A DNA stretch of 64,000 bases from Heliocidaris erythrogramma (Eukaryota; Echinodermata; Echinoidea; Camarodonta; Echinometridae). Location: positions 61,957,606-62,021,605 of the forward strand of contig CM046854.1 of NCBI GenBank assembly GCA_025617745.1, in the 5' to 3' direction. The translations under genes were made by a program, and so were the position numbers. The notes under the pieces are model-generated. The model ran no database searches, was not told the DNA's origin, and was given only the letters and a program-made list of their open reading frames with translations. Positions 33,721 through 63,596 of the stretch are shown here, in pieces; positions within the stretch are counted from its first letter, which is position 1; every line of letters starts with the position of its first letter.

Positions 33721-34081
33721 ATGAAGATTAATGTTTTGTCTGCGTTATTTGCTTTTTCAGTGATCAGTGGTCAAACAGTAAGTTTGTCGGGTTCTGACAG
33801 AGCAGCGACAGGAAGTAATACTTCATTCACATGCACTGTGAATGGAGGTACAGCAAACGTGATTCAATGGCTTGAAATTGTTGTTGGTGGTGGTACAACA
33901 ATGTATACCGGATCAGACCGTTTCAGTGTTGATCCTAAATACCTGAATTTTAAAGTGACATCATTATCATCAACTGAATCTATAATGACCATAGAGAAGG
34001 CCGAAGTTGAAGATGATGGAATGTATAGATGTACTATTTCATCAGACAACACAGCTACTCCTATAAACCTGGTGGTAGAAG
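33721..34081 (+). CDS. Exon 1: signal peptide and Ig domain 1
   Basis: It starts MKINVLSALFAFSVISG, a plausible signal peptide, followed by QTVSLSG. The Ig fold is supported by Cys38, Trp50 (IQWLE) and Cys104 in DDGMYRC, spacing typical of a V/I-set domain. NTS at residues 33-35 is a glycosylation sequon. The donor is GAAG/GTTAGT and the exon ends in phase 1. Alternatives: start at 33634, or an upstream exon spliced at 33761 after TTTTTCAG, which would replace the first 13 codons. Confidence 0.8.
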
Positions 34082-46000: not shown

Positions 46001-47751
46001 GACCAGACCATCAGGAACAGACTTCACGCAGCCAATTTAAGAGCTCACAAGGCAGCAAGAAGACCTGCACTTTCGGCCTTGCATCGTCATTCCCGTCAAC
46101 GCTGGTGTTTGCAACATCTTCGATGGAACCGGGAAATGTGGCAGAATGTCCTTTTTACAGATGAATCCAGATTCTGCTTGAGGAAACTGGACGGAAGGGT
46201 GAAAGTGTGGCGTCGCCGTGGGGAACGCTTCGCTGACTGCTGCATCGACCGGGTAACAGCGTTTGGAGGAGGCAGTGTTATGGTGTGGGGTGGCATATCT
46301 GCTGAGGGAAAGACACAGCTTATCATCGTTGATGGAAACCTGACAGCAGAGAGATACCGAGACAACATTCTTCGGCCAGAGGTCATCACATACATGCGCA
46401 ATCTTGGACCAAACGCCATCTTCCAAGATGACAACGCCCGCCCTCACAGAGCAAGGATCATCACCGAATACATGCAGGAGGAGGCAGTGACGAGGATGGA
46501 TTGGCCTGCGAACAGCCCTGACTTGAACCCAATCGAGCATCATGGGACCAGCTTGGCCGTGCTGTACGGGCCAGAGTCACAGATCACACTACACTGGCTG
46601 AGTTGCGACAGATCCTTATCGAAGAGTGGAACCTCATCCCACAGCAACGCATCACCAGGCTGGTGACAAGCATGAGGAGGAGATGCCAGGCTGTCGTAGC
46701 TGTATTCGGATCTTCTACTCGCTACTGAACTTCTGATCCTTTGCTATTCCACATTTGATGTGCATGTTACTCAATAAAAAGTGCCAAACATTTTGTCATT
46801 TGCAAATTTGTGTATTTGTGTTTGTTTTTGTTTCGTTAGAGAGGGGAGAGAGAGTTAAAGAACATGAGTTCACATCAAAAAAGGGGAATGTGTTTGTTGA
46901 AGTGAAAAGCAATCCAAGAGAAGAGGAGAGTTTGTGTTGCTTATGTTTCTGTGATAGGGTTACATGGCTGAAAATTAGATAATTTGCTGAGGGGAGACTT
47001 TTTTCCCCATCGCAGTTGTGTACTGCTAAGGTGGAAACTTGCAATATTCTGCATGAAACCAAAACACAATATTAATGTTATCACAATCAGTTGCTGATTA
47101 AAACACATTCCATCTTAAAACAAATGAATAATTCCACTTCAAAATCACTGAAAACAATATTTGTCCACCAAACAAGGGATTACAGCAGAAAGATGTACAC
47201 CTAATACAAAATTAAACAAACCAAAAGGAACAAAAACAAAGAAACAAAACCTTTCATTCCAGTTAAGAACTCAGTGTGAACAATAACAATGCATTCTGCA
47301 ACTTTTCACTTTTGACTTTGCCCTATATTTAGGTGCACTGCACATTCCGTGATTACATAATCAATACAAATGTGGTATCATTGTGAAGGTGAATAAACAA
47401 GCTTTACAATGATATCAGACTTGATGATGATCATACAGTTACTAGAGAGATATAAATGCTTAAACTTGAATTGCAGAACTTTTTTTGAGGGGTTTATATA
47501 TATATACATGTATATATATTATGTGGAAAAAATTATTAGACCAAGTTTCTGTAATAAGGGTACTATAATATGTATACGGCTTTATAAAAATGATTTGTCT
47601 TTGTATTTCATTTAATGAATACCAAATTACAGCAATTATACCTTGATTTTATGATATTTTATTTCCTTCTTCCCACAGAAAATAATCAGTAACCATTCTT
47701 GGTCTAATAATTTTGTTTTCCATGGCTGTATATATATGTATCATGTATATA

Positions 47752-47796
<45 letters not shown>

Positions 47797-50700
47797 TTAA
47801 CAACAAAATTATTCATTCCCCTTGGAAAATTCTAGTTTTTTGCATTTTTCCTAAAAATGAATGGTTAACTGAATTTAATTGCACATCACATGAATACATT
47901 TAGTTATCATCTGCAAATGAATGCTGTTTCTGGTTTCACCTCATTTGCATAACAATAGAAAAGGGTGAATTATCCAAACTGGGTGATGTTCAAAATTATT
48001 CATACCCTTGGTGATCTATTGACTTTGTCAATCAGTATGAATCCAGGCCTTGTGATTAATGCTCGTAACACTTTCTTCACACTGTCACAATGCTTCTGGA
48101 GGTCTCTACTGAGATATCAGGCCAATACCTGGTCTCCAATGGCCTAAATCTCCTTGAGGATGTTGTCCACACATGCCATCACCTGGTCTTCAGGGGATTC
48201 GATGGATTTAAAGCAGATTTTGTGTTTGCAGGTGGTGTAGTTTTAGACGTCATGAGGATAGGACTATGATATTGATATTTTCGTTAATATTCCTTACAGT
48301 TTAATGACAATTCTGTATAAGTTGAAACAAAGCACTCTTCCTGGAGAGACTTCCCTAGAGGCATTCACTGTTGAACTGTCAAGGGAAGGTATTTCCTGAT
48401 ACTTTTGTTCCATTATGTTTAGGGAGGCCATGGTAGTTGTCTAAAGGTTGGATGGTGCCAATTTTATCAGTTTATTCAGTTACAGTGATTGACACATTTT
48501 TGATATGGACACCTGCAAGTGGGTACTCTAGTGAAGCTTAAAATACTGATCTTTATGTTCCAGTGCACTGTCAAACTGGTAGCATTTTGTGCACTGCAGC
48601 TGGTAACATGGAGGGCATATGGTATAAATTTGGTTTACATTCATTTTGATATCAAGGATTGTAGCTTTCATACCAAAGATACAAAGAATATACCATATGA
48701 AGATTGATACAGTAACAGTCAATGTGGGATGTGTATGGTACTCAAAGGTTACATACTGTTATTCATGGTGACCTGACGTTAGAGTCATGAAATGACTTTA
48801 ATATCACCAACATGGCCTTCCTGAGCACTCTGATTAAGAATGGGGCAAATGAATAAAGGTGAACCCTCCCACAGGCAGTGCAAAAGGGAAGGGCTCTTCA
48901 GGAATGGTGCTTTGCTTCATAAGTAGATACAGAATTTTCATTAAAATGCATGGAATAAATGACCGAAAATTTCAATATCATAGTCCTGCCATCATGAAGT
49001 CGATAACTGCATCACCTGTAGGCCACGAAATCTAATGAACTCACTGAAGGTCAGGTGAAGGCATGTGTGGACACATCCTCAAGGAGATTGAGCCATTGGA
49101 GAACAGGTACTGGCCTGATATCCCAGCAGAGACCCCTCCGGAAGCCTTGTGACGGTGTATTATAATAAAGTGAATTACAAGCATTAATCACAAGGATCGG
49201 ATTCATACTGATTGACAAAGTCAATAAATCACCAAGGGTATGAATAATTTTGAACATCGCCCAGTTTGGATAACTCACCTTTTCTATTGTTATGCAAATG
49301 AGGTGAAACAGGAAACGGCATTCATTTGCAGATGATAACTAAATGTATTCAAGTGATGTGCAAGTATGCAGTTACGGATTTTGCAAACTTTGAATACGAG
49401 ATTTAAAAAAAATGTAATCGAGAAGAAATATCAATTGTTTTATATATCATAAATATATGACATCGCTAATGTTAACGTATATCTTCAAACAGCGCGAGAA
49501 CCAATTACAACAGAAGGAACTAATCCAGACCCACCAGGTGAGGGTTATTTCTTTTAAGAGCAATTTATCAATATTTTTTTAATGAATTGATATTTGACAT
49601 CATCTGTGTTTGACTTCAATAATTTTGCTTACTTTCTCACTGATCATTTTTTGAATTTGCTAAATTACTCTTCTACCAAGTGACTTTGAATTCAAAACTG
49701 TATAAATACGTCTTTGAAAAGTGCGAGAATTTTGTTAGATAAAAGCGCCATCACTTTTTATCTTAAATGTAAGCCATAAGTTCAGTATGAAGTCTCAAAA
49801 TGTATTTCTAAAACATAGGATAAATTACCAAATTAACATAAAAAAGAAAGGAAAACACTTGTTCTAAATTAATTCCATATTCGGAATTCTATCAATAAAC
49901 TTGTAATGAGGGTCCTAAGCATAGCAAGCTAGATCCACAATGCACTGCTAACAAAAGCTTAGATCATCAATTAGCCCTAGATATGTTGTCACTCTTTTTG
50001 AGGTTTCATATTAACATCCTAACTTTTAGTCTAAGTTTGATTGCACTAATTAATACTTATGTATTTGAACTGCTAGTAGGCGTTAACATCTAGAGCTTAC
50101 TTACTTTGATACTATGATACTCTCTTTACAGATATCTTAACGCCATAATTTCAACATTCATGTTTATTATTTTAGAAAAACAATATATACATCACACTCA
50201 AATTAACTAAGGCAGCTGCGACGATTTTTCAATATGTTCAAAGAAGAGAAAAAATCAACTTTTTTAAATTTTCATTTATTTGTGGGTGGGACAACGACAT
50301 AATACATGATGTGCACAGTGATCTATCATGACTAGATCAGCAATATGCACCAAAGCGAACGAAGTCAGTCATCAGCTTCTGACTTCTACAGTGTACCATC
50401 AATCATTGTGATATATTGCTCCAATGATGTAGAGAAGTACATGCAGTCAAGCGCTTCCTTATTTGGCCTTCATTCACTTACAATAATACCACAGGTAAAC
50501 AGCCTTGATTAACATAACAAAAGGAGCTTAACCTCTTTAGTACAAAGTTCATTGCCACGACCAGCTATCATTGTTATTGATCTGTATTTACAATGCACAT
50601 ATTTAGTATGGAGTATGTATATTAGCTGATTTAGTGGACTGACTTGTTATTTTTCTCCCCTCATTTCCTTGACATTTTGAAGGAAAAAAATATGATTTCA

Positions 50701-53700
50701 TACACATAATAAATCAAACAGTGTTGTTTAAGACAGATAATGGAAAATCCAGTTTATATAGAAAAAAAATACATGGCCAGTCTTCTTCAAATTATTTTAT
50801 TTTTGAGAACAAGTAGATCCATAGGCATATTGCCTTTGAATTATCTTACTACTGATATAGTTTGCATGGTTAATTTCAGACATTTAGGAAGTGCCATGAA
50901 TATGATACGTGAGTGTTTTCTACTTTTTTAATGATAATACCAGTAAGAGAAAAAAAATGATTAATTTAGTGTACTCATTCTGTGCCTGGAAATTTGCTTT
51001 CTACATCATTACAAACAACAACTACAAAAACAACAACAAATAAACAATCAGCAATGAGCTGTGTTTAAGTAGGGATAACTCTCTCTTTGAAGTCTTACAA
51101 ATAGTTTACAATTTAACTATTGCTGAGTTTAACAAGAAATGTTGCAAAGCTACTAATTAATGCCCGAGAAATCAGTACACACCTAGACAGTAACATACAT
51201 TATAACTACGTGAATGGAGTTTTGGAAAATGTTATTAGTTAGAGAGTTTGATGCCTTTTTCAGGCTCAGTATAAAAATGAAAGTTCAACTTCTGGTATAG
51301 TGTAGAATTAATTCCAAATGCATTTTATGATGCAATTCATAACGAAGAGTTTAGCGCAATTTAGAAGTAACTGGTACATGTAGTTAAGACAAGCTTCCAA
51401 GACACAAATGACACGGATATATTGAAGAAAATAGTCCGATGTATTTTTACACTCATTGTAAAGGAGAAGTCTTTACAAAATACAGAAAGTAATATCTGTA
51501 GCATAATTTGGCTAACAACACTGGTCAGTGATTATACAAAATGTGGAGTCCATCTAGACAGGTGTTTAGTAACTGTATGCACAAAACCAATGAATACCTT
51601 TCACTACAATTCATCATCATCAGTGATTCTAAAGATAGTCCAACACCGGTAACACATCTCGTTTATCTGCACTTCCTTATTTCATTGCGTTTTCATAAAT
51701 ATCCATTGCCTTAGGGACATCCTCAAAGAGACTAACTGAGTTTTGAAAATTAGGGGGAAATGGGGAACCCTTATGATACAGCTGCCGAGTTTTTCAAGTT
51801 AGATACTGTATAATTAAATTTACGTGCTTTTTTCAAAGCAAAAAACTTCTATTCTTATTGTTTTCTTTGGACGTGCACGCAATAAATGTATTTGTCACAC
51901 ACTATTGAAATGAACTGATTTGTATACATATTCATACTTGTCACAATGTCAACAACCGTCTAATGTAACCCTGCTTTGAAGTGAAACTAAATGCAGTTTG
52001 CGTTACTTATTTACTTTAATTGTAGGATAATTATCTATGATATTTATTTGGAAGGATTCCCAAATAAAATTTGACATGTTTATACTTGTTTTTCACAGTA
52101 AAGCAATGTTCCTCGTAAAGTATGAACACAAGTGTTAGTAAATGCATAATTCTAAGCAGCCAATATGCCCCATATACTCCTGAAAGCAGTACACACTAAA
52201 GAGTCCAAAGGTATATTACATCACGGTTGAATAGTTAAAACATAAAGCTGAGAATGCACGGTATATATATTCTACTACTTTGTGCATTTTGGCAGTTTGC
52301 CACGTCAATATTTGAACTAGTGCACAGTATTCACATTCGGAGAGACAAACACAAAAGGGAATTTCCCATTCTATTTCACAAAATAGTTTATTCAACTTAT
52401 ACTGGGTGCATTATGATTTAAAATACCAAACGAATATCCTTGATGGTTTAATATAAAATGATATTTCCTTATTCACAGGACATTATATTCAATTCAAAGG
52501 ACAGTTCTTGAAATTTCACACAAAACTATACTGTAATCGAAAAAAGTTGGCCTATTGAACGTATAGTTTAGATTTGTCATTCAAGACGCTTTCGTGGTTT
52601 TTCTCAGAGCCTATAAAATAAATATATACATATATGGGTTTGTAGGTTTTTCCTCCACCACTTATGCCAGTTCAGTCAAATTAGAACTCTTTTAACAAGC
52701 TAGTTACCAATATCAAGAATGTTTCGTGAAGTTCACTGCAATATAATATATCTACTAATCCTTGCTATTCAGAACCCGTACAATGTACATGTCTGAGTTC
52801 TGGAGCCTCTGCAGGTATCGCAGTCTTAGCAGTCCTCTTAGTGGTGTCTATCATCATCAATGTCATTCAATTCATCGTGTGGAGGAGACATGAAACCAAA
52901 CCAGGTGACTGTGTTCATTAAATCTAATCAAGTAATTAAAGATGGAATCAAGACATTTATAATAGAGGAGGATCCAGACACTGAATAGTACATGTAGCTC
53001 ATTTTCAGGCCATTTTACAACCCCGATTTGAAATTAAACCCTAAAAGCTATTAACTGAATGGCAAGGAAGTTAGTAATAAGTGAAATTGGACACGTCGAT
53101 TGGTAATTGCCATAATATAGGCAAAAACCCCACACAAAACCATGTAGGAAAAAGAAGATCGAAGCATTTACATCTAACACACCCTTCACAATACAATGGA
53201 GAAAAAGTAACCTGATTCTGTAATGTTTTCATTTTTCTGTTTAGTTCCTCCCTTCCAATAGCTTTCCTTTCCTTCCTTTCTTTAATTCATCCTTTCTCCC
53301 TTCTACTATTAATTTCTTCTACATGTCTGTAAATTATTTATTAACTGGGGCCTATCCACAACAAGCCTAGCTTTACTTTAGGCCCCTCCTCTGTATATAC
53401 ATGCACGTAAATCTTTGAATTACATGTACTCTCTTTATTTTTAAATTCTTGCATTATTGTGACATATCTGTTCTTCAATTATATAATCGATTTCTATTAT
53501 TCCAGAATGTATTTCAAAATGTATGATTGGTATTTCGATTTCGATATTTGCCAAGTAATAAATGTCAAGCAAAACATGCATAAGAAGTGTATTAACAATG
53601 ACCTCCCCCCCCCCCCCCCCACGAATCCTCGCCTGGTTATCCCATGCAAACTTACAACCCCCCCCCACCCCCCACCCCCTTTTGTACACGATATTCACCC

Positions 53701-56700
53701 TTCACTGATCTATTGTCATTGGAAGTTGATGTGACTTTAAACTTGCCAATAATATCCGTGTGAAATGACTTTCCTGAATGCTAAATACAGTGTTATTGCC
53801 GAGTCATTTCCTCACTGCATTTCCTTAATGGATTTACTCATGCTACGTCAATACCTCTGGATAGAGACGTATATCCTACTTCCTAATAAACGCACTTATA
53901 AACCAATGCATCGTTGAGCTTATAAATGATATCAAACTTTCTGTATTTGCTTTTGCAGGTTTCGAAGAGTCACAGAAAACCGTCTCCCGGTTAGTATATT
54001 TTGGCAATTTGAAAAATGAACAATAAAAAAAAAAAGGTATCACACACGCACACACACACACACACGCGTAAATAAATGAATACATTAAATGAATTTTGCA
54101 GTGGTAAAAATGTGAGAAATTGGCAACGGTGAGAGTCAAGTACACACCGAGACAGTTAATGCATTATGTAAATGTATGTTATTAAACATGTTAAAAAGGT
54201 AACTTAATCTCAAGCAGGAATCTGTGCCGAAATGCCAAGATATAAATGACGTTTTTGTGTAATACCATTGTATTCATTTCCAATTCATGGTATAAGCCAG
54301 TTCGGGGTTAGCGCATGGTACAAATGACCCCAAATATCCACAGATATTTTAGACATGGAGGGTCTCTTTATGTGCACTTCAGAAAAATACCTCTGGGAGT
54401 GATAGAGGTGCCTCATGAATAGCTTTTGTTTCCCCCTTTAAAAAGAATACTTCCGCCTGGATATCATGGAATGAACCATTAGTGCATAATTGAATAATGA
54501 TTACATGACATTCATGAGCACATATCGAATATTAGTGTCAGTGGGTTTTAGAATTTGGTACAGATGACCTTTATCTGCTCATGCTCAGATTGCATCTCCG
54601 AAATGGCTTATTAAGCAGGACATTGACAAGGAGTAAAATCAATTTGAATGTGCAGAGTGAAGACATAATTATGCCACCTCCCAAATGAATAATAATAACC
54701 ATATATTTATTTATTTATTATGGTATATGATGATTGACCAGCAGCACAGGGGCTGAAGGGGTCAATTTACAATCAGATATATATGTGCATGCATGTATAC
54801 AATGAAATCGCATCAAATATATAAAAAGATACATAATTGGAAGCAAAAGGAAAATACAAAGATTTACGCTACACAAATAATAAGAAAAAACAGTGTGAAA
54901 AGTGAGAGAAAGAAAGAAAAAGTAAAGAATAGGAAAGAAAAGGGAAGAGAAAGAAAGAAGGAGATAGTTAGAGAGAAAGGAGAAGATTTGGAAGGAATAC
55001 ATACATATAACCAAGTTATTTAAAACCTGACACATTTTTTAAAAAATTAAATTAAAACTTGCATACATATACATGTCATAACAAAACGTAACAGATACAT
55101 TAATTTCAAAGTGTTACAAAAAAGTTCGTTTTACATAATATTCAGTAATTAAGTTTTGTCATTTTCTTCTCACACTTTTTCCAGAACACATCCTTTTGAA
55201 TGTTTGATCTCCATTTTAATTCTTCTATGAATTCGTCGAAAATCCCTTTAAAATTAAATTTTCTTTTTTCTTTAAATATTGTATGTGTGCCTAAATTAAT
55301 CAATACACTGTAAAAAGCAATATGCTTACGTTCACTTCTCCCTTGTCTACCTATAACTATATCTTCATAATTTATTACAACATTTTAAACAGTTATTTCG
55401 ATGTCAACACAGAATTTAGTAAATTTACTCCAAAAGAGTCTTGAAAAAAACAATCATAAAACAAATGATAATAATTTTCAATAGTATTAAAATTATAGGA
55501 AAGTGGAGATTCAGACAATTTAAAACGAAACAAATATTCATTAGACATCAATAGCTTATATAAAAATTTAAAATTAAATTTCCTTAATCAAAGTAATATT
55601 TTCTTTCCAAATCTTGTTCCAGTTCAGGTTTTTTTTTTTTAGATATAATGACCAATATTGTTCTACATTAGGGGTAATGTATTTTTTATTTACTAAAATA
55701 TTATATAATTGTTTCGACACATAATTACTCATGTCTTCTGACATGAGTATTATGAATTTAGTTCAAATTCTACTTTTGAAAAGTTGATCTGGATATCAAA
55801 GAAAATGCATAATTACGCATTTCATTATCCAACAAAGGCTAACATGTTTTTTGTTTTTTGGAATCTCAATCACATTGTCTGTGTAAATGCATTCTGATCT
55901 AAAATGACTCTGGGTTACCTTTAACCCTTGATCAACAAATAATATCTCCTTGAAAATGATATTTTAATTGAAAGGAGCTCCTGTTTGAATACATATTCAA
56001 TATGTTTTAAGTATGCCCAATTAGTTGCTGTCAAAAGAAGAAACTAAAGTTACCTGAAAATGATTTATAAATGATTTATACATGACCAATGTTTTGGTTT
56101 TGAAAAGTTGATCTGGATATCAAATAAAATGCAAAATGACGCATTTCATTATCTAACAAAGACTAACGAGTTTTTTGTTTTTGGTTGTTTTTTTGTGAAG
56201 AATCTCAATCACATTTGTCTGTGTAAATGCATTCTAATCTAAAATGACTATGGGTTTATTACCTTTAACCCCTCTGATCAACACATAATATCTCCTTGAA
56301 AATGACAGTTTAATTGAAAGGAGCTCCTGTTTGAATTCATATTCATTATGTTTTAAGTATGTCCGCTTAGTTGATTGTCGCTATGAAACGCCAGAGAAAA
56401 TTAAGGAACACTGTCATCTGTCAAAAGAAGAAACTAAAATTACCTTAAAATGATTTATAAATGATTTATACATGAACATTTTTTTTAACAGTGAAGGGAG
56501 AAATGTATTCCATGAGGCGAATGACAACATGGCGTATGAGATGGTTCAGAGTGGAGATAGAGGTAAGAAAATGTCGGTGCAAAATCAGTCAAAAGTAAAA
56601 AGAAAAAATAAAGAGAGAGAGACAGAAAAAAGGGCGGCATAAAATACGAGGAGAAACAAACACCGAGTGAAATATCATTCCCAACATGAAAGGGAGAGAT

Positions 56701-59700
56701 ACTTATGTCCCAATTTTGCCTACTTACGTTGGACAAATGGACGCAGCAAACAAATATAATACACAAATTGCTTATCATTTGTTGCAACACTAAAAACGAT
56801 AATATTTTTTGCTTATATTTTCAATTACCATGATTACATATTGTAAAAACATGTAAGATATATAGATCAGGAAATTTTAAGAGTTACTATGGCTATAATT
56901 TCCTGTATAATATTTAGATTGACGTCATGACGTCAATCTTCTATTCTCGTTCATGTTTTGCATTCTTCTTCTTCTTCTTCTTCTTTACCCTCAGACCCCA
57001 TTCGTTTTGCACAGGGTGTTTGTGAGCTCTGTCTAGGTCATTTCCCCTTGTCCATTTCATTTCAAATTTCGTATGCATGTTCCTTGGCATCCCTTCTAGG
57101 TCACTGAGGTCTTCGTTTTTCGAACTCACACATGCATGACCGTCCAGGCGCCATTTTGTCCGTTTTGGGGCCATTTTCATGCCTTTTGTTCTCCTTGCCT
57201 ATCTCAGCTATCCTACATCCTACAGACTTCTAACAAATTCCTGTAGATAGTCCAAGAGTTGCTCTGTACATTCTAATAAAAAAATTAATACGAAAAATGC
57301 CATCTTCACACTGTAAATTTAAGTCCGAAATCGGCCATATTGAAAAACGCTAAATTTCTTGAAATTTTCACTCTGTCATATCAATTGATTTCTGCCTCGA
57401 ACGTTTACCATGTCTTGGTCTTGGCGTTGCACACATTTCTGCCAGATTTCATGCATTTCTGATTACGCATTATATAAACAGCGCCCTCTAAAGTTTTCAA
57501 AACGGCTCTCTTCGTGTGGCCGTATCTCCGTCATGCCTGGGTAAACCCGTACCCTTTTTTGGATTTAGATACTTCAAGATATACCCTTTTCAGCCAAATA
57601 AAAAAATATATACCCCATCACTGACCGACTTTGAGAAAATTGCACTTGAAAATCACAATATTTGCATAAATGCCGAAATAAAGACAACTTGCTCTAATTT
57701 TGTGAACATTCATCGTACGTCTTTGAAATTTGGTGGGTATGTGTATTTGTGTATTTGACAACTGTTAACCAAATTTGGTTGAAATCGATGACGTCATCGC
57801 GAAGATATTACGCAAAAACCTTAATTTACTATGCATTACATAATATTGCATAATATGCTTATTTTAAATGGCGCGCTAGTCGCAGTAGGCTCACAATGAC
57901 CGCAATAAAATTCCCTCATCAGGGATGCCAAAAAAAGATATATGGTCTCACAGAATATTTTGAGTAAATCGCGATTGAAGTCGGGTCATTATACGGATCC
58001 TGCACATGTATTACATGTATTGTCTATGGGGCAAATCGGTTTCCCGCATTTGGCCCCCTGAACGATTTTTATTTTTCTTGAAATTTTGCAGGTACATGCT
58101 TCGAGGCAAAATGAAGAGACTCTCGAAGCCAGATTTTTAATATCTATCAAGCGCTTTGTTTTAATCGCAATTTTATATCCTGCATAGATGCCACTACATA
58201 CGGAACTATGGCATGCCATCCGGGCCAGATTTCCATTGTGGCCAATTTGTTTTGCATGCAGTGCTTGTGATCACTGTCTAGGTCCTTTCCCCTTGTCCAT
58301 TTCGATTCAAATTTCGTATGCATGTTCTTTGGCATGCCATGTAATGCACTGAACTCTTCATTTTCCGAAATCACTCATGCATGACCGTCCAGGCGCCATT
58401 TTGTCCGTGTTTCGTACCTTTTGTTCGATTTTGACTATCTCCACTATTCTAGATGCTACAGACTTCAAACAAATTGCTATAGTTTAAGAGATGCTTTTTA
58501 TTTTACTGTTCAATGACATGCAAAATACAGACGTCAATCCATGCACATCGTTCTGATACGATTGCAGTTCTAGTTCAACCTATTCTCCTTTAAAAATATT
58601 TTAAAAATCAGAAATATATTTTTTTAATTTTGAGCACAGATTCTTACTGCCAAGAGAACAATTTTAGCTCTTATCTCTTACCTTTTTTGTTTCTTGTTTT
58701 TTTGGGGGGGAAGGGGTGTGATGTTATCATTAATGTTTATCCAACCCTACAGTGTCAGCTCATGATGACTATCAACAAGCCTATCTATTTAAGAAACATG
58801 AAATTTAGCATTAACCATGTTTTGATTTTGAGCTTTCAAGTATCAGTAGCTTAGTGGTAATATTCTTTCTTCATTCCACAGCATACACAGCTCTTAAACT
58901 CGGTCCATCGGGGACATCTCGCTCGCCCATCATTGCTCCTGAAAACTTGACGTTTTTCACCAGACTTGGATCAATCGGCAGGGGTGACTTCGGCGGTGTC
59001 TGGAAGGGAGAACTCCGCTCAAATCAAGGACAAGTGGACGTTGCTATCAGACAAATTCCAGGTGAGCTAATAATAAGAAACATAGTTTCAAATATATTTA
59101 ATTATCAATCTAAACAATATCATATTTTAGACGCCCCCTTTTCTATTATTTTATAACCATATGTGTGTTTCATGTATCAAAAACTTATTTTAGCCCATCA
59201 GTGTAGCTTGGGCCTCAAACGCATGTGATATTTCACGTTAATCATTAAAAACCATATTCGAATTCTAACAAAAAGTGTAACCTACAACCGAAGCGACGCC
59301 CCTCACCGCCCCCGTTGGAGACCCAAACACTTGGTAGAATCAGCATTTCGTCACTCTATCAATTTCTGGACACGCCTCTGATTTGTAAAATTACTTCAAC
59401 CATGTCACCTTTTTTCTCACACCTGTCTGTTCGAAACTGATATCAAATATAGTTATATCAAGGTTATATCTCCTCTTAGAACAAGTGACCGAATCAGCTA
59501 ACGTGCTTCAATCTGTCAAGGTACTTTGTGATCTATCGGATCAACTGAATGTTGCTAAATGCCTTGGATATTGTCAACAACAAGGTAAGAAATAAGAATT
59601 ACGTAGTGTATAGTTCTGACGACAGACTTTCGTCAATTCCATAAATGTTAATAAATTAAAACTAACCCTAATCGTAGAAATTAAATATAAAGTATATGCA

Positions 59701-60859
59701 CATTTATGAGGAGCACAACATTAAAGCAAGTTAATAATACAAAGATGTATGATAGAGTGAAGAACTATAAAAGTCATTTTTTTTTTATATAGCATGCAAA
59801 GTGTGAACAATAGCCAGCCAAAACACCAAGGATCCAGAAGGCTAATCAATGGTTCACTGCAACTCATTTAAAAATATATATAAAAAGCAATTTAAGGAAA
59901 AATATTGGGCAATAGGTAAAACATTGAAGTCATGAAATGCGATTTGCCAAAAGAAATTTATGCACACGCCTTTTAAAAGAATTTAGTCCTGTACAGGAAG
60001 GCGTTCCAACAACATGATTTGGGAGACTGTTCCAAACCCTTGAAGCCGTGTGAATGAAGCTTCTGTCCAATAGATGAGTTTTTGCAGTGGGTAATAGAAC
60101 AGCGTGGACATGAGAAGAAGGTCACTCGTCTCCTTTCTAGAGGCGGAGGGAGCATTTCATTTAAGTCTTTTGGGCACTGTTCTGTGTGTAATTTGTAGAA
60201 TACACAAGCAGCTGCAACTTGGCGCCTGTGAGTTAAACTAGGAATGGATAAATCTTGAAGGGCAGTGAATTCATCAACACAAATTACCAGGACAGTTTGA
60301 ATATCGAGTTTAAATGAAGACGTTTTCCTTTATCATGAAATATGATGTGAGGTATATTCATTATTGTTTGATACATACCATTTTGTCAATACCACTGATG
60401 CAGGTAGCATTCTGTATGAGTTCATTTCTGGGGGTACACTATTAACCCATCTTCAGACTACAGGGGTACAAGCTCAACCTACATATGGCAACCTTAAACC
60501 AAACAAGGTTCGTGTGGATGAAGGCAGTCTACTCAACTTCGCCTGGCAGATAGCGAAAGGAATGCAGTTTCTTGCATCCAAGAAGGTATGAAATTTCCAT
60601 GTTTATATACATGCAGTATTTTATATATACACACAAGTGTAAAGTAAATAACATACACAACATCTTTGGCAACTGTCGCGGAAATAAATGAACATAATAT
60701 ATATAAACACCTATCGGGTACATTAGGAGGACAGTTTTTGTTCTTTTTCTTTGTCCAACTGTCGACTTAATGTACCAACTGTCGACCTAATGTAGGGGTC
60801 TCTATTATGACGAAATAAACTGTATTGTCAACTGTCGACCTAATGTACCCGTTAGTCAA

Positions 60860-61226: not shown

Positions 61227-63596
61227 TTGTGTGTGAAAAATGTAATGGTAAATGAAACAAAGACGTGGTGTAATTTACAGTTTTTAATTGCAACAAGCTT
61301 TCTGCTTAATAATTAAGGCCCTTTTCCTGTTTTTGAGGAGAAATACAGAACACAAACACGATACTAATATTCATGTATAAGTGAAAAACAGGTTATTTAG
61401 ATTACAACCAGGATTTAAAGCTACATTTATTGCTAATTGGCTTAGTAGGTTGCCCTTGAAAGTGTAAAAATAGATCAAGCTGGTAAAGTCACACTTGTCA
61501 ATTGGCGGAAAATTATATTATAATCATGTCTTGCAAGCAGAATAGGAATGAAAACGAGTAGGAGGTAAAGGAAGGAGAAGGATGGGAGTGAAAAGAAATG
61601 AAAGTAGAAAAGGGAGATAAAGAGAGAGAAAAAGGGAAGAAAGGATTAGCATCAAAAGAACAAGAAAAAGATGAATATAAATGAGAAGGAGGGAAAAGAA
61701 GAAGTGAAAGAGAATGGGGGTAATGTATAAAGAGGGTTAGTAGACATGAAGAGCAAAACTGTCGTATCTCCTTTTTTAATGTTTCTGTCTAATCTAGATA
61801 ATCCATGGAACTCTATGTGCACACAATGTCTTACTAGCCGAGAGAAAGCAATGCAAGCTAGCGGACTATGGACTAGCCTCATCACTTTTCAACAAGAGAG
61901 GCGTAGGTTTGGTCATTTTAACTGTTTCACAATAGCTTGAAAGGCCTAAATAAGTAATAAGGGAATTGTATGAAGGGGATAAGTCGTCATTTTGAACTGT
62001 CCTTGTTCCTCCACGTCTGGACAGATAAATTTACAAAGATAGTAATTTACATGTATCTCCGTGGATACAAATGTCATTACATTTTGCATAACTTTAATAA
62101 GCCCACGTCCGACATGCTCTAGGTTCATGTATGATTTCCAAGATATAATGATGTATTTCTATCTTTCTAGAGGTGAATTTTTACATCAAAACCCTATTAT
62201 CGTTAATCTGTAAATCAATAGTTGTCAAGAGCAGTTTTACCGTAGTTATTCCTTATGTAGCTAATGTAATTTGCTTTCATCTCCAAGACATCATATTACA
62301 GAGAGAAAGAGAACATATTAAAAGGACACGGTCATGTAGTACGTCCAGACAAAATGTGATTATAAATCCTACAAAATGGAAAAAAAATATTTATTAGAAA
62401 CTTTTTGATGAAATAGTCATATCATCACAGAGACATATATTAAAATATTTTTTACACATATGAAATTTGAACAACTCCAGCTTTCAGCACTATAGCACCT
62501 ACACTGTGGAATTCTCTTCCTCCCCAACTTCGTGATGCATCCTCCGTCAATAGTTTCAAGAACTGTCTAAAGACATACCTTTTTTCATAATCTTATAAGT
62601 TATATCAATGCGTCTATAATGTGTATGTTTATGTTATCCGCTATTTCACCTTTTTTCAAGTATTTCACTCGGTTATAATGTAGTGCTAAGTAATGCAATG
62701 TAATGTACTGTACTGTAATCTAATATAATTTAACTGAATGTAGTGTAAAGTAATTTAATTTCATGTATTCATCCACATTACGCATAATAGTTTTCAAAAT
62801 TGTAAAGCGCATGGAGATGACTGAATATGATGCGCTATTATTATTATTAAAGGCCTTACTATGAAATATCAAAACGCGAAAGGTCGAATTTAGCTGCGTG
62901 TTGATGCCAAGTGAAGTACTGGATCCAACAGGAAAGAGGAATGTTATTTTAAGTCTCATAGCACTTGGACATAATTTTTATGTTTTGATTTTAAACGATT
63001 TTTTTCTATTTCAATTTACTAATTACTATGTGTTTTTTATAGAAACCATCAAGATGGAGTTCACCGGAAATGACGGTATCTGGTGTCCACTCAAGGGAAG
63101 GAGATATCTGGTCTTTTGGTATCGTCTTGTGGGAAATTGTGACACTAGGTGTGAAGCTAAGAATGATTTAGCATTTTTTGCATATATATTCATATCATCA
63201 CTTCCTTAATCGTGTAAAAGTTATCCACCATTTTCCATTTAACTTTGATGCGGTTTACTACAAACTTAATTCTTTCTTAATGTTTTTGACTTGTGTCAAA
63301 TTCCGAAATTTGTTTTGCATTCAACTACAGGGAGGTGTAAGTTAACTTAAACTCTTGCAAGACATTGAATTTATAGTTAGATATTCAGTAATATATCAAG
63401 GTTCTTGCAAACCCAATGACACTCTTTCAACCAACACAAAAACAAAAATTATGTTACAGATAATTCATAATCTCATTTCTTTTCCATTTTGATACTAAGG
63501 TGCTAGGCCATACCCTAATATGACCTTTGACATCGTTCAGAAGGAGGTCATTAATGGATACAAGATGCCACGCCCTCGCCATTGTGGACAAGAGTT
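33721..63596 (+). CDS. Ig-domain receptor tyrosine pseudokinase (14 exons seen, 3' incomplete)
   Basis: Type I membrane receptor assembled from exons 33721-34081, 36157-36474, 37439-37688, 44096-44122, 49493-49537, 52773-52904, 53959-53989, 56492-56562, 58882-59061, 59480-59584, 60404-60585, 61798-61902, 63043-63148 and 63500-63596. It encodes a signal peptide, three Ig domains, a Pro/Thr stalk, one transmembrane helix, a juxtamembrane segment with YEMV and YTAL, and a tyrosine-kinase-like domain cut by the window end. Boundaries use AG/GT sites and phases agree, except that Ig3 ends in phase 2 while the stalk needs phase 1, so a small exon is probably missing. Kinase features: GRGDFG loop intact, VAIK as VAIR, HRD as HGT, DFG as DYG, APE as SPE, DIWSFG present. 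By family knowledge, loss of the catalytic Asp and Lys argues against normal phosphotransfer. The closest broad relatives are metazoan Ig-type receptor kinases; I cannot name an orthologue. Confidence 0.85.
34097..35226. mobile_element. Inverted-repeat element in intron 1, about 1.1 kb
   Basis: The left end CACACAGATAAATATTTAC matches the reverse complement of the right end, CACACAGAGAAATTTTTAC. TA flanks both sides, fitting TA-target insertion. The interior is a mosaic of ATGTAAAATTTTTACATAA-like units in both orientations, with no transposase. A 74-bp tandem unit containing TTATGGAGTTCCTATTTAAC lies at about 35088-35215. A short palindrome, CCCCAATATTGGGG, is at about 34640. Confidence 0.75.
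35227..36156. other. Intron 1 remainder
   Basis: AT-rich intron sequence. I see no repeats with clear ends and no coding frame with family features. Confidence 0.5.
36157..36474 (+). CDS. Exon 2: Ig domain 2
   Basis: 106 codons, phase 1 in and out, between TCCATCCTAG and GTAAGT. Ig landmarks in the joined protein are Cys144 (IYIATC), Trp157 (TITWILNG) and Cys205 (TLVCQVSGH). The C-x-V-x-G-H ending and the PPLSNTKSVFTF strand resemble the C1/I-set second domains of nectin/CADM-like adhesion proteins. The Asp-x-Gly-x-Tyr turn before the last Cys is replaced by NHLQTLVC. Confidence 0.88.
36543..36748. mobile_element. MITE in intron 2, 206 bp
   Basis: TACTGCAAAAGTGGAATTTT at the left pairs with the right end, whose reverse complement is TACTGTAAACGTGGAATATT. 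The interior is rich in CGCGAAA and TTCGCG. TACTGTAAA-type ends with TTCGCG interiors are common in marine invertebrate MITEs, as far as I recall. Confidence 0.72.
36850..37339 (+). mobile_element. Polyadenylated retro-insert (3' end)
   Basis: AATAAA at 37295-37300 is followed 14 bp later by A25 (37315-37339), the arrangement left by reverse transcription of a polyadenylated RNA. No coding frame survives, and the 5' boundary is a guess. It could be a processed gene's 3' UTR or a LINE tail. Confidence 0.5.
37439..37688 (+). CDS. Exon 3: Ig domain 3
   Basis: Acceptor CACCCCAG, donor CCCA/GTAAGT. Ig landmarks are Cys251 (IIVSC) and Cys296 (GTQYTCVAGNYLGN); the usual core Trp is Tyr (NYYIYSN). 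The C-x-A-x-N-x-x-G ending is classic I-set. NDS and NTS sequons are present. It enters in phase 1 and leaves in phase 2, but the next recognised exon needs phase 1, so a short linking exon may lie between 37689 and 44095. The reading frame itself is certain from the Ig motifs. Confidence 0.85.
37740..37885. repeat. T-rich tract and G homopolymer
   Basis: T and TTG runs at 37752-37803, and a G-rich run with about 17 consecutive Gs at about 37868-37885. This is simple sequence in intron 3. Confidence 0.8.
38317..39260. mobile_element. Fold-back element in intron 3, about 940 bp
   Basis: The left end reads TTAAAGTAGAACACTCAAGA. The right end reads the same way in reverse complement (TTAAAGTAGAACACTGATGA). 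A second paired block lies further in: CTTAAGCAGACGACGTCCTA at about 38538 against the reverse complement CTAAGCAGACGATGTCCCAT from about 39021. The arms thus pair over much of the element with divergence. No transposase is seen. Confidence 0.7.
39290..39370 (-). repeat. tRNA-derived SINE-like fragment
   Basis: On the minus strand, GGTTAAGTCGATGCCC is followed by AGTTCGAATCTCGC, an A-box-like and B-box-like pair (B box consensus GGTTCRANYCC), then GCTGGTTATTTTTTTTT, a Pol III terminator-like T run. Acceptor-stem pairing is poor, so it is not a functional tRNA gene. It abuts the Penelope-like fragment. Confidence 0.45.
39362..39880 (-). pseudogene. Penelope-like element reverse transcriptase fragment
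   Basis: From about 39840 down on the minus strand, in broken frames, the translation shows QPKIHKPLIPLRPIISTR, then PLVALSEHHITNSQHFV, then a microsatellite break, then DILVSFDVVSLFTSVPVKEA and CDIIKQRLISDPDLEQ. These are the PKIHKP, HxxNSxHFV and FDVxSLFTxVP blocks that mark Penelope-like RTs and distinguish them from LINEs. A (TAC)n run at about 39605-39632 interrupts the RT. No GIY-YIG endonuclease is present. Confidence 0.85.
39881..40339. other. Intron 3, no recognised feature
   Basis: AT- and CT-rich sequence without a recognised gene or element. Confidence 0.5.
40340..40980. mobile_element. Repeat cluster built on GTTTTCACGAAGTGACGG
   Basis: The motif occurs in plus orientation at about 40344, 40519, 40625 (as AAATGACGG) and 40740. 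It is inverted, as CCGTCACTTCGTGAAAAC, at about 40579 and 40693 and near the right end (CCGTCTCTTTGTGAAAAC, about 40952). The outer copies face each other like terminal repeats. The inner 40576-40760 region is a direct duplication with AGCGCGTCCTTGAATT. No transposase is seen. Confidence 0.65.
40981..41264. other. Intron 3, no recognised feature
   Basis: No gene or repeat recognised. Confidence 0.45.
41265..42640 (+). pseudogene. Non-LTR retrotransposon reverse transcriptase, frameshifted
   Basis: Plus-strand RT in at least four frame segments: MFNEYFVNIGPN (linker), TLKCSHSSSHDEI, FKIAKVIPIHKKDD, NYRPASILSSFSKIFERIVY, then FGFHKNHSTDLAL, GIFVDRSKAFDTFD (block A with its Asp), CRVPQGSIL with DPLLF, FADDTN (catalytic, about 42193-42210), LNLKKTNFI, FLGVYINEDLKWNDHI. 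The frame breaks near 41820, 41985 and 42255, and there is no endonuclease upstream, so it is a dead 5'-truncated copy. It belongs to a different lineage from the minus-strand LINEs at 1-2400. Confidence 0.9.
42745..43020. repeat. GC-rich direct repeat pair
   Basis: Two copies of about 85 bp at about 42748-42832 and 42938-43015, each with TGCCGGGAGGAAGACATCC, AGCCGG, GGGACAGG or AGGACAGG, and GATTCCC. The second contains the palindrome GGTCACGTGACC (an E-box, CACGTG); the first has a CACATG variant. Base composition is well above the surrounding intron. Confidence 0.75.
43200..44045. repeat. Minisatellite with CCAACCAACCAA and a 120-bp unit
   Basis: Irregular AACCAACCAACCA units with TTTCCAAGCCC run from about 43230. 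From 43561 to about 44040 they become a regular 120-121-bp repeat: CAATATCC starts at 43581, 43701, 43821 and 43942, and each unit has CATATATGCATACATTGTAT and two TAGGTTTCCAAGCCC blocks. Both strands carry open frames by chance. The array ends about 50 bp before the 27-bp exon. Confidence 0.92.
44096..44122 (+). CDS. Exon 4: 27-bp stalk microexon
   Basis: Between TTTCATAAACAG and GTATGT. In phase 1 it reads PTTPPPTTG, a Pro/Thr stalk suited to O-glycosylation. Length divisible by three with equal phases means it can be skipped without changing frame. The call rests on splice sites, phase and composition. Confidence 0.65.
44123..44359. other. Intron 4 start, no feature
   Basis: AT-rich intron with nothing recognised. 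Confidence 0.4.
44360..45327 (-). mobile_element. CR1/L2-like LINE 3' end, second copy
   Basis: The minus-strand frame at 45327-44911 carries the C-terminal block YSIVLPHFDYCSSVW, LQKVQKRAARIVL, MFSRLGWMPIQTRFQFGRA and MMYKAMHGVAPEYL. Its 3' UTR continues to a GAGCCACCCTGTATAAAT end and an (ATAA)n tail at about 44365-44392, as in CR1-type LINEs. The start resembles the window's first bases (CAGAGGAACAATAATCAAA in both), so this is the same family as 1-2400. It is 5' truncated. Confidence 0.88.
45251..45375. repeat. Perfect 22-bp inverted repeat, 81-bp loop
   Basis: The arms at 45251-45272 and 45354-45375 (GACAACAGAACAGAATTGTC plus AT, and its complement) match exactly across the LINE boundary. 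The unrelated 3' side at 45328-45580 contains GAAGAAGGCCAGGAGCCGAA, similar to Penelope-like terminal sequence. The hairpin could mark a template-switch insertion. Confidence 0.7.
45594..47495 (+). mobile_element. Tc1/mariner-type element with long inverted repeats
   Basis: The left end AAACCCCTCAAAAAAAGTTC and the right end (same in reverse complement, 47495 downward) continue as TGCAATTCAA(C/G)TTT. A further paired block, GGGCAAAGTCAAAAGTGAAA, appears at about 45767 and inverted at about 47305. The terminal repeats therefore span about 200 bp. Both ends sit in TATATA DNA, the TA target of this superfamily. It encloses a broken transposase at 45958-46728. Confidence 0.92.
45958..46728 (+). 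pseudogene. Tc1-family transposase, N-terminus lost and frameshifted
   Basis: The frame starts inside the protein at RRFAKRLSDQTIRNRLH (end of the second helix-turn-helix) and continues through WNREMWQNVLFTDESRF (first catalytic Asp), VKVWRRRGERF, GGGSVMVWGGI, IFQDDNARPH (second Asp) and WPANSPDLNPIEH. A one-base loss at about 46541 then shifts the frame. The tail WDQLGRAVRARV to STRY and a stop at 46726-46728 continue in the next frame. The first roughly 100 residues, with the two DNA-binding helix-turn-helix motifs, are absent. The DDE core otherwise looks intact, so decay is recent. Confidence 0.93.
47513..47730. mobile_element. Short Tc1-type MITE, about 215 bp
   Basis: The left ATGTGGAAAAAATTATTAGA(CCAA) pairs with the right end, whose reverse complement is CATGGAAAACAAAATTATTAG(ACCAA). 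Both ends are in TATATA DNA. The interior is AT-rich with no coding frame. Confidence 0.8.
47736..47792. repeat. (TA)n microsatellite
   Basis: About 50 bp of nearly perfect TA repeat between two DNA elements. It may have served as the insertion target for both neighbours. Confidence 0.9.
47793..49363. mobile_element. Palindromic DNA element, about 1.57 kb
   Basis: Left-arm sequence pairs with the right arm over most of the element. CATGAATACATTTAGTTATC (about 47889) pairs with its complement at about 49333-49352. The block AATTATTCATACCCTTGGTG is at about 47994 and inverted at about 49237, GATATCAGGCC-type sequence at about 48113 and inverted at about 49116, and AGGACTATGATATTGA at about 48260 and inverted at about 48975. 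At the centre the 11-bp arms CATATGGTATA (48616-48626) and TATACCATATG (48689-48699) pair. The left end CAGTTAACAACAAAATTATT resembles Tc1-type termini; its right counterpart (last roughly 75 bp) is missing. No transposase is seen. Confidence 0.85.
49493..49537 (+). CDS. Exon 5: 45-bp stalk exon
   Basis: Between CTTCAAACAG and GTGAGG. Only phase 1 gives an open stalk-like reading, REPITTEGTNPDPP; one other phase has a stop. It is symmetric like exon 4, so it is also a candidate for optional inclusion. It joins cleanly to exon 6. Confidence 0.7.
49538..52772. other. Intron 5, no recognised feature
   Basis: About 3.2 kb of AT-rich sequence. The open frames here, such as those near 50740 and 51422, have no family features and start in low-complexity sequence. 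No inverted-repeat ends or RT blocks were recognised. Confidence 0.5.
52773..52904 (+). CDS. Exon 6: transmembrane helix
   Basis: 44 codons, phase 1 in and out. It starts EPVQCTCLSSGASAG, then a hydrophobic segment of about 22 residues (IAVLAVLLVVSIIINVIQFI), then the stop-transfer VWRRHETKP. This fixes the topology: Ig domains outside, kinase-like domain inside. The two Cys before the helix could form disulfides near the membrane. Confidence 0.9.
53590..53682. repeat. C-rich simple sequence
   Basis: A run of about 17 Cs at 53605-53621 and a CCCCCCCACCCCCCACCCCC tract at about 53659-53679 in intron 6. Confidence 0.85.
53959..53989 (+). CDS. Exon 7: 31-bp juxtamembrane exon
   Basis: Acceptor TTGCTTTTGCAG, donor CCCG/GTTAGT. 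It reads GFEESQKTVSR, phase 1 in and phase 2 out, which matches the next exon exactly. Short and polar, as expected just inside the membrane. Confidence 0.75.
54038..54066. repeat. (AC)n microsatellite
   Basis: About 27 bp of CACACA with a few CG interruptions. Confidence 0.85.
54713..55725 (-). mobile_element. LINE C-terminal end (L1/Tx1-like)
   Basis: On the minus strand, in broken frames from about 55700, the translation shows VEQYWSLYL, then an LNWNKIW-like block, then TIENYYHLFYDC (the HLFxxC block near the end of L1-type ORF2), then INLGTHTIFKEKRKF and EELKWRSN. The 3' UTR runs down to an (ATAA)n tail at about 54703-54720. The 5' part is missing. It is too decayed to assign a clade firmly. 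Confidence 0.7.
55778..56480. repeat. Tandem duplication of about 320 bp before exon 8
   Basis: Both copies start TTTTGAAAAGTTGATCTGGA (about 55776 and 56098) and share CGCATTTCATTATC, CACATTTGTCTGTGTAAATG-type sequence, AATATCTCCTTGAAAATGA, GAAAGGAGCTCCTGTTTGAA and AATGATTTATAAATGATTTA. The second copy carries an extra insertion of about 50 bp (GATTGTCGCTATGAAACGCC). It ends about 10 bp before the exon 8 acceptor. Confidence 0.88.
56492..56562 (+). CDS. Exon 8: juxtamembrane segment with YEMV
   Basis: 71 bp, phase 2 in and phase 1 out, between TTTTTTAACAG and GTAAGA. It reads EGRNVFHEANDNMAYEMVQSGDR. AYEMV is a Tyr-x-x-hydrophobic motif of the kind SH2 domains recognise when phosphorylated. 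Because the receptor's own kinase looks inactive, another kinase would have to phosphorylate it; that is an inference. Confidence 0.8.
56916..58570. mobile_element. Interspersed repeat with two internal related blocks
   Basis: It opens with a perfect 24-bp palindrome (arm AGATTGACGTCA, 56916-56939) holding two CRE sites (TGACGTCA). A block of about 240 bp at about 57000-57240 recurs in diverged form at about 58240-58480. Both copies share TCCCCTTGTCCATTTC, AATTTCGTATGCATGTTC, CATGACCGTCCAGGCGCC and ATTTTGTCCG. AGACGTCAATCC near 58531 may be the opposite end. Between them lies GATGACGTCATCGCGAAGAT (57788). No coding sequence is recognised, and exact ends are uncertain. Confidence 0.6.
58882..59061 (+). 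CDS. Exon 9: kinase-like N-lobe, glycine loop and VAIR
   Basis: 60 codons, phase 1 in and out. It starts AYTALKLGPSGTS (YTAL is a possible SH2 site), then PENLTFFTRLGSIG, then the glycine-rich loop GRGDFGGVWKGEL, then VDVAIRQIP. The loop fits GxGxxG with the Phe that normally caps ATP. In VAIK the lysine that positions ATP phosphates is arginine (AGA at about 59048). The C-terminal splice at CCAG/GTGAGC is clear. Confidence 0.92.
59480..59584 (+). CDS. Exon 10: kinase-like alpha-C region
   Basis: 35 codons between CTCCTCTTAG and GTAAGA, reading EQVTESANVLQSVKVLCDL, SDQLNVAKCLGYCQQQ. LNVAKCLGYC aligns with the HxNIVxLLGxC segment of tyrosine kinases, with Gln for His. Counting back from that Asn, the residue at the usual alpha-C glutamate position is Ser, although a Glu lies several residues earlier. 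If correct, the Lys-Glu pair is lost on both sides. Confidence 0.85.
59765..60285 (-). mobile_element. LINE RT C-terminal remnant
   Basis: On the minus strand from about 60275 the translation shows LQDLSIPSLTHRRQVAAACV, FYKLH, LPPPLERRR, then in another frame SFIHTASRVWNSLPNHVVG. This is the PSLxHRR...RVWNSLP end found in CR1/Jockey-type ORF2. The 3' UTR runs to about 59765. It is frameshifted and 5' truncated. Confidence 0.8.
60404..60585 (+). CDS. Exon 11: kinase-like hinge and alpha-E
   Basis: Phase 1 in, phase 0 out, from CACTGATGCAG to AAG/GTATGA. It reads GSILYEFISGGTLLTHLQ, an insert region (QAQPTYGNLKPNKVRVDEG), then LLNFAWQIAKGMQFLASKK, which matches the FAxQIAxGMxYLASKK helix. The beta-5 strand before the hinge (GSILYEF) is about two residues shorter than the usual GPLYVIVEY. 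The insert contains a Tyr (PTYGNL). Confidence 0.9.
60716..60850. mobile_element. Very short inverted-repeat element, 135 bp
   Basis: GGGTACATTAGGAGGACAGT at the left pairs with AACTGTCGACCTAATGTACC(C) at the right with two mismatches. Inner copies of AACTGTCGAC(C/T)TAATGTA lie at about 60757 and 60777. Confidence 0.65.
60860..61226. repeat. Microsatellite cluster, (TA)n, G run, (GT)n
   Basis: (TA)n at about 60860-60897, a G run at about 61133-61148, (TA)n at 61157-61186 and (GT)n at about 61199-61227. Between them GTCCGAGGAC or its complement GTCCTCGGA recurs five or more times (60926-61090), again in facing orientation. Confidence 0.85.
61540..61735. repeat. Purine-rich (GA) tract
   Basis: About 190 bp dominated by A and G on the plus strand, just before exon 12. 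No coding signal. Confidence 0.75.
61798..61902 (+). CDS. Exon 12: catalytic-loop and DFG region, HGT and DYG
   Basis: Phase 0 in and out, from TCTAATCTAG to GGC/GTAGGT. It reads IIHGTLCAHNVLLAE, RKQCKLADYGLASSLFNKRG. The join ASKK to IIHGTLCAHN aligns perfectly with the LASKKxIHRDLAARN segment, so HRD is HGT: both the Arg and the catalytic Asp are replaced while the Asn is kept. DFG is DYG, keeping the metal-binding Asp. HG-type loops occur in known pseudokinases such as the JAK JH2 domain. The alternative donor at 61907 would break phase with exon 13. Confidence 0.93.
62460..62855 (+). mobile_element. LINE 3' end (CR1/L2-like)
   Basis: The plus-strand reading APTLWNSLPPQLRDASSVNS, FKNCLKTYLFS with a stop at about 62590 is the usual end of CR1/L2 ORF2. 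Its 3' UTR ends TGTAAAGCGCATGGAGATGA ... GCGCTATTATTATTATTA, the typical tail with an ATT repeat. Only the last few hundred bases are present. Confidence 0.88.
63043..63148 (+). CDS. Exon 13: SPE and DIWSFG region
   Basis: Phase 0 in, phase 1 out, from GTTTTTTATAG to CTAG/GTGTGA. It reads KPSRWSSPEMTVSGVHSREG, DIWSFGIVLWEIVTLG. APE is SPE, and the DxWSxG structural motif is intact. Joined to exon 12, the stretch from DYG to SPE is about 22 residues and has no Tyr beyond that of DYG, so it is short and lacks the usual activation-loop tyrosines. Confidence 0.92.
63500..63596 (+). CDS. Exon 14: C-lobe (window ends before the last exons)
   Basis: Acceptor GATACTAAG, phase 1. It reads GARPYPNMTFDIVQKEVINGYKMPRPRHCGQEL. 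This is the RPYPxM...VxxGYxMxRPxxC segment of receptor tyrosine kinases. Reading through would give a TTG TAA stop at once, so I place a donor GTAATT at 63597. The Trp-containing LMxxCW helix and tail must lie beyond 64000. Confidence 0.88.

Follow-up and report, generated by a model that had tools for sequence, protein, structure and literature searches.

This locus raises the question of whether an exon in which the catalytic HRD motif of a receptor kinase reads HGT belongs to a pseudokinase kept under selection or to a gene in decay. We addressed it within a 64-kb window, the whole stretch of DNA analysed, by modelling the exons around this one (Table 1).

The HGT exon and the gene around it

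The codons of exon K4, which translates as IIHGTLCAHNVLLAERKQCKLADYGLASSLFNKRG, confirm that HGT stands in place of HRD (CAT GGA ACT, 61804-61812) and that the following Asn (61825-61827) and the DYG Asp (61864-61866) are retained, as the initial annotation had proposed. No Asp codon can be reached from the Thr codon ACT in fewer than two base changes, which makes a single sequencing error improbable. With tblastn, no second K4-like exon carrying HRD was found in the window. The exon had been described as joining its neighbours perfectly, which holds for its phase but not for its splice signals: scoring by a simple weight matrix puts its donor last among the 13 in the gene model, at -1.8 (range -1.8 to 7.0), and its acceptor-plus-donor sum, also -1.8, is the lowest among the 12 exons scored, a weakness that counts against the pseudokinase reading. 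Two alternative in-phase donors were tried and scored below the chosen one (-2.5 and -10.3). That K4 is otherwise well conserved was an overstatement, with residues 2-28 sharing only 14/27 identities with FGFR1, 12/27 with TIE2 and 11/27 with both RET and EGFR.

K4 and five further kinase exons have continuous frames, AG/GT borders and compatible phases, and are joined to the transmembrane and juxtamembrane exons; the kinase domain matches Pfam PF07714 with E = 1.8e-53. Three Ig-domain exons sit upstream on the same strand, the first with a start Met and signal peptide assigned by eye. Two features of the model speak against the pseudokinase reading: no convincing exon linking Ig3 to the stem exon was found in 37.7-49.5 kb, so that the two could not be joined across this 12 kb gap, and the final kinase exons after K6 and the tail presumably lie past the window end. 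The gap contains transposon and reverse-transcriptase remnants.

Table 1. Exons of the modelled receptor gene (all on the + strand)
Feature	Position	Description
Candidate first coding exon: putative signal peptide, Ig domain 1	33721..34081	Open frame, donor gttagt; Pfam Ig_3 match, best stretch 27-107
Ig domain 2	36157..36474	AG/GT, phase 1/1; C2-set_2 match 2.3e-11, residues 140-209
Ig domain 3	37439..37688	AG/GT, phase 1/2; Ig_2 match 4.2e-11, best stretch residues 240-305
Candidate stem exon	49493..49537	AREPITTEGTNPDPP (first residue varies with unseen preceding base); AG/GT, phase 1/1, fits transmembrane exon
Transmembrane exon	52773..52904	GIAVLAVLLVVSIIINVIQFIVWRR; AG/GT; long hydrophobic run then basic residues, judged by eye
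Juxtamembrane exon 1	53959..53989	AG/GT, phase 1/2
Juxtamembrane exon 2	56492..56562	AG/GT, phase 2/1; Tyr in NMAYEMV
Kinase exon K1	58882..59061	Gly-rich loop GRGDFG, beta3 VAIR; Arg codon 59049-59051
Kinase exon K2	59480..59584	alphaC; Ser codon 59512-59514 at conserved Glu position
Kinase exon K3	60404..60585	beta4/5, hinge, insert, alphaE
Kinase exon K4 (HGT exon)	61798..61902	105 nt, phase 0/0; acceptor tctaatctag, donor gtaggt; HGTLCAHN loop, loop Asn, DYG Asp, short activation loop
Kinase exon K5	63043..63148	W-SPE (SPE 63061-63069), GDIWSFG, alphaF
Kinase exon K6	63500..63596	AG/GT; ARPYPNM ... PRPRHCGQE

Catalytic residues lost and kept

Mapped onto TIE2, RET, EGFR and the FGFR1 C-lobe, the domain has lost more than had been noted: besides HRD Asp to Thr, the beta3 Lys is Arg (VAIR) and the alphaC Glu is Ser, two losses absent from the initial annotation. 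The HRD Arg, which had also been taken as a sign of inactivity, is indeed Gly, but this change alone means little, since the decapod PVR consensus sequences given in PMC11024359 also have Gly there (HGDLAARN). The Gly loop, HRD His, loop Asn, DxG Asp, PE Glu and alphaF Asp are all retained, as are 42/67 invariant columns, including structural Gly, Asn, Asp, Trp and Glu residues. The other 25 are changed; loss thus extends beyond the catalytic residues to a domain diverged overall, which weighs against the pseudokinase reading.

As modelled, the activation segment has 22 residues and no Tyr, whereas those of FGFR1, RET, TIE2 and EGFR have 27-30 residues and 1-2 Tyr; the model may have missed a micro-exon here.

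Selection or decay

The exon model is open over 1929 nt, with no stops. In a neutral simulation of the 771 nt kinase frame, the fraction of runs without stops was 19% at 5% divergence and 4.6% at 10%, falling to 0/4000 at 27.1%, 0/4000 at 31.5% and 1/4000 at 34.5%. The absence of stops, the coherent splicing and this simulation argue only indirectly that the gene has been kept under selection rather than decayed; a recent loss is little constrained, because about a fifth of the copies are still stop-free at 5% divergence.

A receptor that may signal without catalysis

The transmembrane and juxtamembrane segments, the tyrosine-kinase domain with three catalytic changes and the upstream Ig exons together make it reasonably likely, though well short of certain, that the gene encodes an Ig-ectodomain receptor tyrosine pseudokinase signalling without catalysis. 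Receptor pseudokinases, "dead" signalling kinases, are already well known in other animals, and this gene would add another case, its domain shape kept and several catalytic residues gone. Having neither a catalytic base nor a Lys-Glu bridge, the protein would be unable to transfer phosphate. The retained Asn, DxG Asp and Gly loop mean that nucleotide binding is still possible. By analogy, the receptor probably acts as a partner or scaffold: ectodomain and kinase lobes would mediate its pairing with an active receptor, which would phosphorylate tyrosines in the juxtamembrane region of the pseudokinase or in its tail beyond the window.

None of the eight human cases in Table 2 of PMC13259870 shows this combination of Arg, Ser and Thr with a retained loop Asn and DYG Asp. 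The likeness to HER3, drawn by analogy only, lies in partner or scaffold signalling, for which HER3 is the precedent (PMC13259870).

The kinase exons and their catalytic residues

The exon carrying HGT in place of HRD (K4) is 105 nt long, has phase 0 at both ends between an ag acceptor and a gt donor, and translates as IIHGTLCAHNVLLAERKQCKLADYGLASSLFNKRG. Joined to the five other kinase exons (K1-K3, K5 and K6), it forms an unbroken kinase domain with no stop codon, which the Pfam profiles place among the tyrosine-kinase-type catalytic domains (PF07714, 1.8e-53, above cutoff; PF00069, 2.4e-25). The best 60 of 2055 PDB matches are all receptor tyrosine kinases and, a two-domain EGFR construct aside, TIE2 and RET rank best among these 60 over the whole domain, followed by FGFR1 and KIT. 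The model stops at PRPRHCGQE, short of the final part of the domain; by eye, the three forward frames of the last 404 bases show no evident continuation of it.

Exons of the receptor gene model, in window coordinates
Feature	Coordinates	Strand	Remarks
Ig exons (three)	33721-34081, 36157-36474, 37439-37688	+	upstream, same strand
Candidate stem exon	49493-49537	+	fits transmembrane exon
Transmembrane exon	52773-52904	+	phase-compatible with kinase exons
Juxtamembrane exons (two)	53959-53989, 56492-56562	+	phase-compatible with kinase exons
Kinase exon K1	58882-59061	+	AG/GT, phases match
Kinase exon K2	59480-59584	+	AG/GT, phases match
Kinase exon K3	60404-60585	+	AG/GT, phases match
Kinase exon K4	61798-61902	+	AG/GT, phase 0/0
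Kinase exon K5	63043-63148	+	AG/GT, phases match
Kinase exon K6	63500-63596	+	AG/GT, phases match

The domain was aligned with TIE2, RET, EGFR and, for the C-lobe only, FGFR1, using the sequences as given in the PDB matches. Together with the exon frame, this alignment confirmed the HGT of K4 reported in the initial annotation, in which HRD Arg is replaced by Gly and HRD Asp by Thr, and extended it by two further changes: the beta3 Lys is Arg (VAIR, in K1) and the alphaC Glu is Ser (in K2). The three loop glycines, the HRD His, the loop Asn, the DxG Asp and Gly, the PE Glu and the alphaF Asp are retained. The comparison set has 67 invariant columns, of which 42 are conserved in the query and 25 are altered; the domain has thus diverged generally and its catalytic positions are not statistically singled out, so that losses at three of five of them (Lys, Glu, HRD Asp, Asn and DxG Asp) are not a remarkable enrichment.

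A pseudokinase is usually recognized by loss among the VAIK Lys, the HRD Asp and the DFG Asp. Here the first two are lost (VAIR and HGT) and the Asp of DYG is present. The earlier reading of the domain as a pseudokinase is therefore well supported by this usual sequence criterion, the Asp to Thr change being combined with those of Lys and Glu. The change of HRD Arg to Gly is not diagnostic, because in the portion of PMC11024359 available the decapod PVR has Gly there and keeps the Asp; the catalytic claim consequently rests on Asp to Thr plus the Lys and Glu changes.

Two other accounts of these residues have to be considered. (i) The HGT could be an assembly or sequencing error, since it is read from a single consensus sequence; but an Asp codon is at least two base changes away, and the losses at 59049 and 59512 lie separately in other exons, which makes such an error extremely improbable. 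(ii) The domain could be a still-active kinase of unusual chemistry, in which other residues stand in for Lys, Glu and Asp. WNK kinases, atypical yet active, are a precedent, and the Gly loop, the loop Asn, the DxG Asp and the PE Glu are all in place. Against this, substitutions affect Lys and Glu as well as the catalytic base, where Thr is found, and the modelled activation segment is both short and free of Tyr; we regard residual activity as very unlikely.

The activation segment and the splice signals of K4

From DxG to PE the modelled segment has 22 residues and no Tyr, whereas those of FGFR1, RET, TIE2 and EGFR have 30, 30, 27 and 30 residues with 2, 2, 1 and 1 Tyr, respectively. It is thus short by 5-8 residues, and the splice signals of K4, with a sum of -1.8, are weaker than those of the 11 other exons scored. 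Both observations would fit a gene-model artefact, in which an HRD-bearing exon, or a micro-exon that would complete the activation loop, had been missed. However, when the window was searched by tblastn with the whole model, K4, the RET N-lobe and the catalytic segments of FGFR1, RET and TIE2, no further K4-like exon with HRD turned up in these 64 kb: the rows outside the modelled exons had E values of 0.28 or worse and were apparently chance or satellite. Several pieces of the modelled exons gave weak E values too.

As for a micro-exon, the K4-K5 intron contains five in-phase candidates with splice sums from 1.1 to -1.6, no worse than K4, and one of the five (62288-62338, TSYYREKENILKGHGHV) bears a Tyr pair. 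Yet in 500 shuffled versions of this intron we obtained a mean of 2.5 candidates, with five or more in 14% and a Tyr-pair candidate in 9%, so the number found is unremarkable, and we neither adopt nor dismiss a micro-exon here. Including 62288-62338 would bring the segment to 39 residues, beyond the 27-30 of the comparison set, and a micro-exon in this intron would leave HGT, VAIR and Ser unaltered. FGFR genes, moreover, have introns at both borders of the exon equivalent to K4, which makes a deletion inside K4 the simpler reading of the short segment. Taken together, an artefact of the gene model seems to us highly unlikely.

The ectodomain and the question of decay

The Ig ectodomain is provisionally assigned to the receptor gene by position, strand and type rather than through a complete model. 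The third Ig exon ends in phase 2 and the candidate stem exon starts in phase 1, and the two could not be joined. Strict-threshold scans for a linking exon between them returned none. A relaxed scan gave two weak candidates, one of them directly downstream of a reverse-transcriptase (RVT_1) match; neither was accepted.

Several repeats lie in and around the gene. A tandem satellite of ~144 bp units (2744-30233) occupies most of the first 30 kb of the window, flips its orientation near 5.0, 6.5 and 27 kb, and stops ~3.5 kb before the first receptor exon. At 41256-42515 there is, by eye, a non-LTR reverse-transcriptase-like remnant split over frames, with RVT_1 (2.5e-09) at 41986-42252 and a frame without a Pfam match at 41256-41819, and at 45962-46663 a Tc1/Tc3-like transposase remnant (DDE_3, 1.6e-12; HTH_Tnp_Tc3_2, 9.4e-10). 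The intron immediately before the second juxtamembrane exon carries direct repeats of 42-99 nt (55774-56485; 92-95% identity, spacing 324-390), a local duplication, and in the intron preceding K1 a 192 nt repeat occurs twice (56997-57188 and 58242-58433; 81%).

The gene could be decaying, the receptor having fallen into disuse and lost its kinase residues, with disruptions lying outside the parts seen. The 25 altered invariant columns, the weak splice signals of K4 and the unjoined stretch from the third Ig exon to the stem, which spans the transposon and reverse-transcriptase remnants, would all fit this. On the other side, the exon model is free of stops and frameshifts over 1929 nt (927 nt Ig, 231 nt transmembrane and juxtamembrane, 771 nt kinase), and GC is 0.46 in the kinase exons against 0.34 in their introns.

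The altered codons themselves provide a rough clock. Their minimum base changes (Lys-Arg 1, Glu-Ser 3, Arg-Gly 1, Asp-Thr 2) amount to at least 7 of 12 bases; for the Lys-Arg and Glu-Ser codons, absent from the initial annotation, they are at least 4 of 6 (one-sided 95% lower bound of the changed fraction, 0.271). Simulated neutral change at 0.271 put about 7 stops in the kinase exons, and at 0.315, the lower bound for 7/12, about 8, with 0/4000 copies stop-free in both cases; the stop-free share was 1/4000 at 34.5% divergence, 4.6% at 10% and 19% at 5%. The simulation covers substitutions only and assumes ancestral Lys, Glu, Arg and Asp codons changing neutrally after loss of activity; the codons used as a clock were selected for having changed, and the argument comes from a single genome. 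Long neutral decay is thus unlikely, whereas a recent loss of function stays compatible with the open frame. Overall we consider decay unlikely. That the kinase domain is under selection, as the initial annotation proposed, is plausible but unproven. A search for relatives gave 3 pattern matches in viral and 13 in prokaryote contigs, none confirmed; these collections are non-animal, so the result carries little weight.

Possible signalling and comparison with known kinases

For a domain that is a pseudokinase by sequence, the most likely role, by analogy with HER3, would be non-catalytic signalling within a receptor pair. According to the part of PMC13259870 available, HER3 allosterically activates EGFR and HER2, and EGFR phosphorylates the HER3 tail. 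The retained Asn, DxG Asp and Gly loop suggest that nucleotide binding is possible. A more specific proposal, to which we give little credence, is that the gene represents a new lineage of Ig-receptor pseudokinases which reached its HGxxCAxN loop independently of JAK JH2; its nucleotide-binding, non-catalytic domain would allosterically regulate a partner receptor, and the loss of the activation-loop Tyr would fix one conformation.

No literature on this receptor was recognized among the matches listed, subscription journals being mostly outside the search. If confirmed, the gene would add to the animal Ig-receptor pseudokinases one whose residue pattern is absent from the eight human receptor pseudokinases tabulated in the portion of PMC13259870 at hand, and it would offer a natural means of testing which residues of the active site non-catalytic signalling requires. 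Pseudokinases are already well studied, so the conceptual gain would be modest.

Among known kinases, the likenesses and differences are as follows. (i) Identity to the query is 79/222 for RET, 74/225 for TIE2, 64/215 for EGFR and 51/117 for the FGFR1 C-lobe; unlike the query, all four carry Lys, Glu and HRD over the aligned stretches (C-lobe only for FGFR1). (ii) In VEGFR and PDGFR, alphaD and alphaE are separated by a long kinase insert; in the alignment the insert of the query is TIE2/RET-sized, which places it outside this split-kinase class. (iii) JAK2 is a cytoplasmic kinase with tandem domains. The loop HGNVCAKN of its JH2 pseudokinase domain (PDB 9nd5 and others) shares 5/8 residues with the query loop HGTLCAHN, Gly and Cys included, compared with 4/8 for HRDLAARN; over eight residues the resemblance is weak and, if meaningful, would likely be convergence. 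(iv) The decapod PVR, of PDGF/VEGF-receptor type, shares the Gly for HRD Arg (consensus HGDLAARN, Table 8 of PMC11024359) and, in PVR1, an alphaE context (YQIAKGMEYLAFKK) resembling that of the query (WQIAKGMQFLASKK), but differs in retaining the catalytic Asp, as far as the accessible part of that paper goes. (v) Table 2 of PMC13259870, a source available in part, covers eight human receptor pseudokinases, and in none of the eight are Lys, Glu and HRD Asp all lost while the loop Asn and DFG Asp are retained. EphB6 resembles the query in having lost Lys (to Q), Glu (to R) and HRD Asp (to S), but EphB6 and EphA10 are also without the loop Asn and DFG Asp that the query keeps; EphB6 has thus lost all five. 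HER3/ErbB3 is the nearest of the eight: like the query, it has lost the alphaC Glu and the HRD Asp and kept the loop Asn, the DFG Asp and the Gly loop, whereas it retains the beta3 Lys (VCIK) and the HRD Arg (HRN). The ectodomain of HER3 is leucine-rich/Cys-rich rather than of Ig type.
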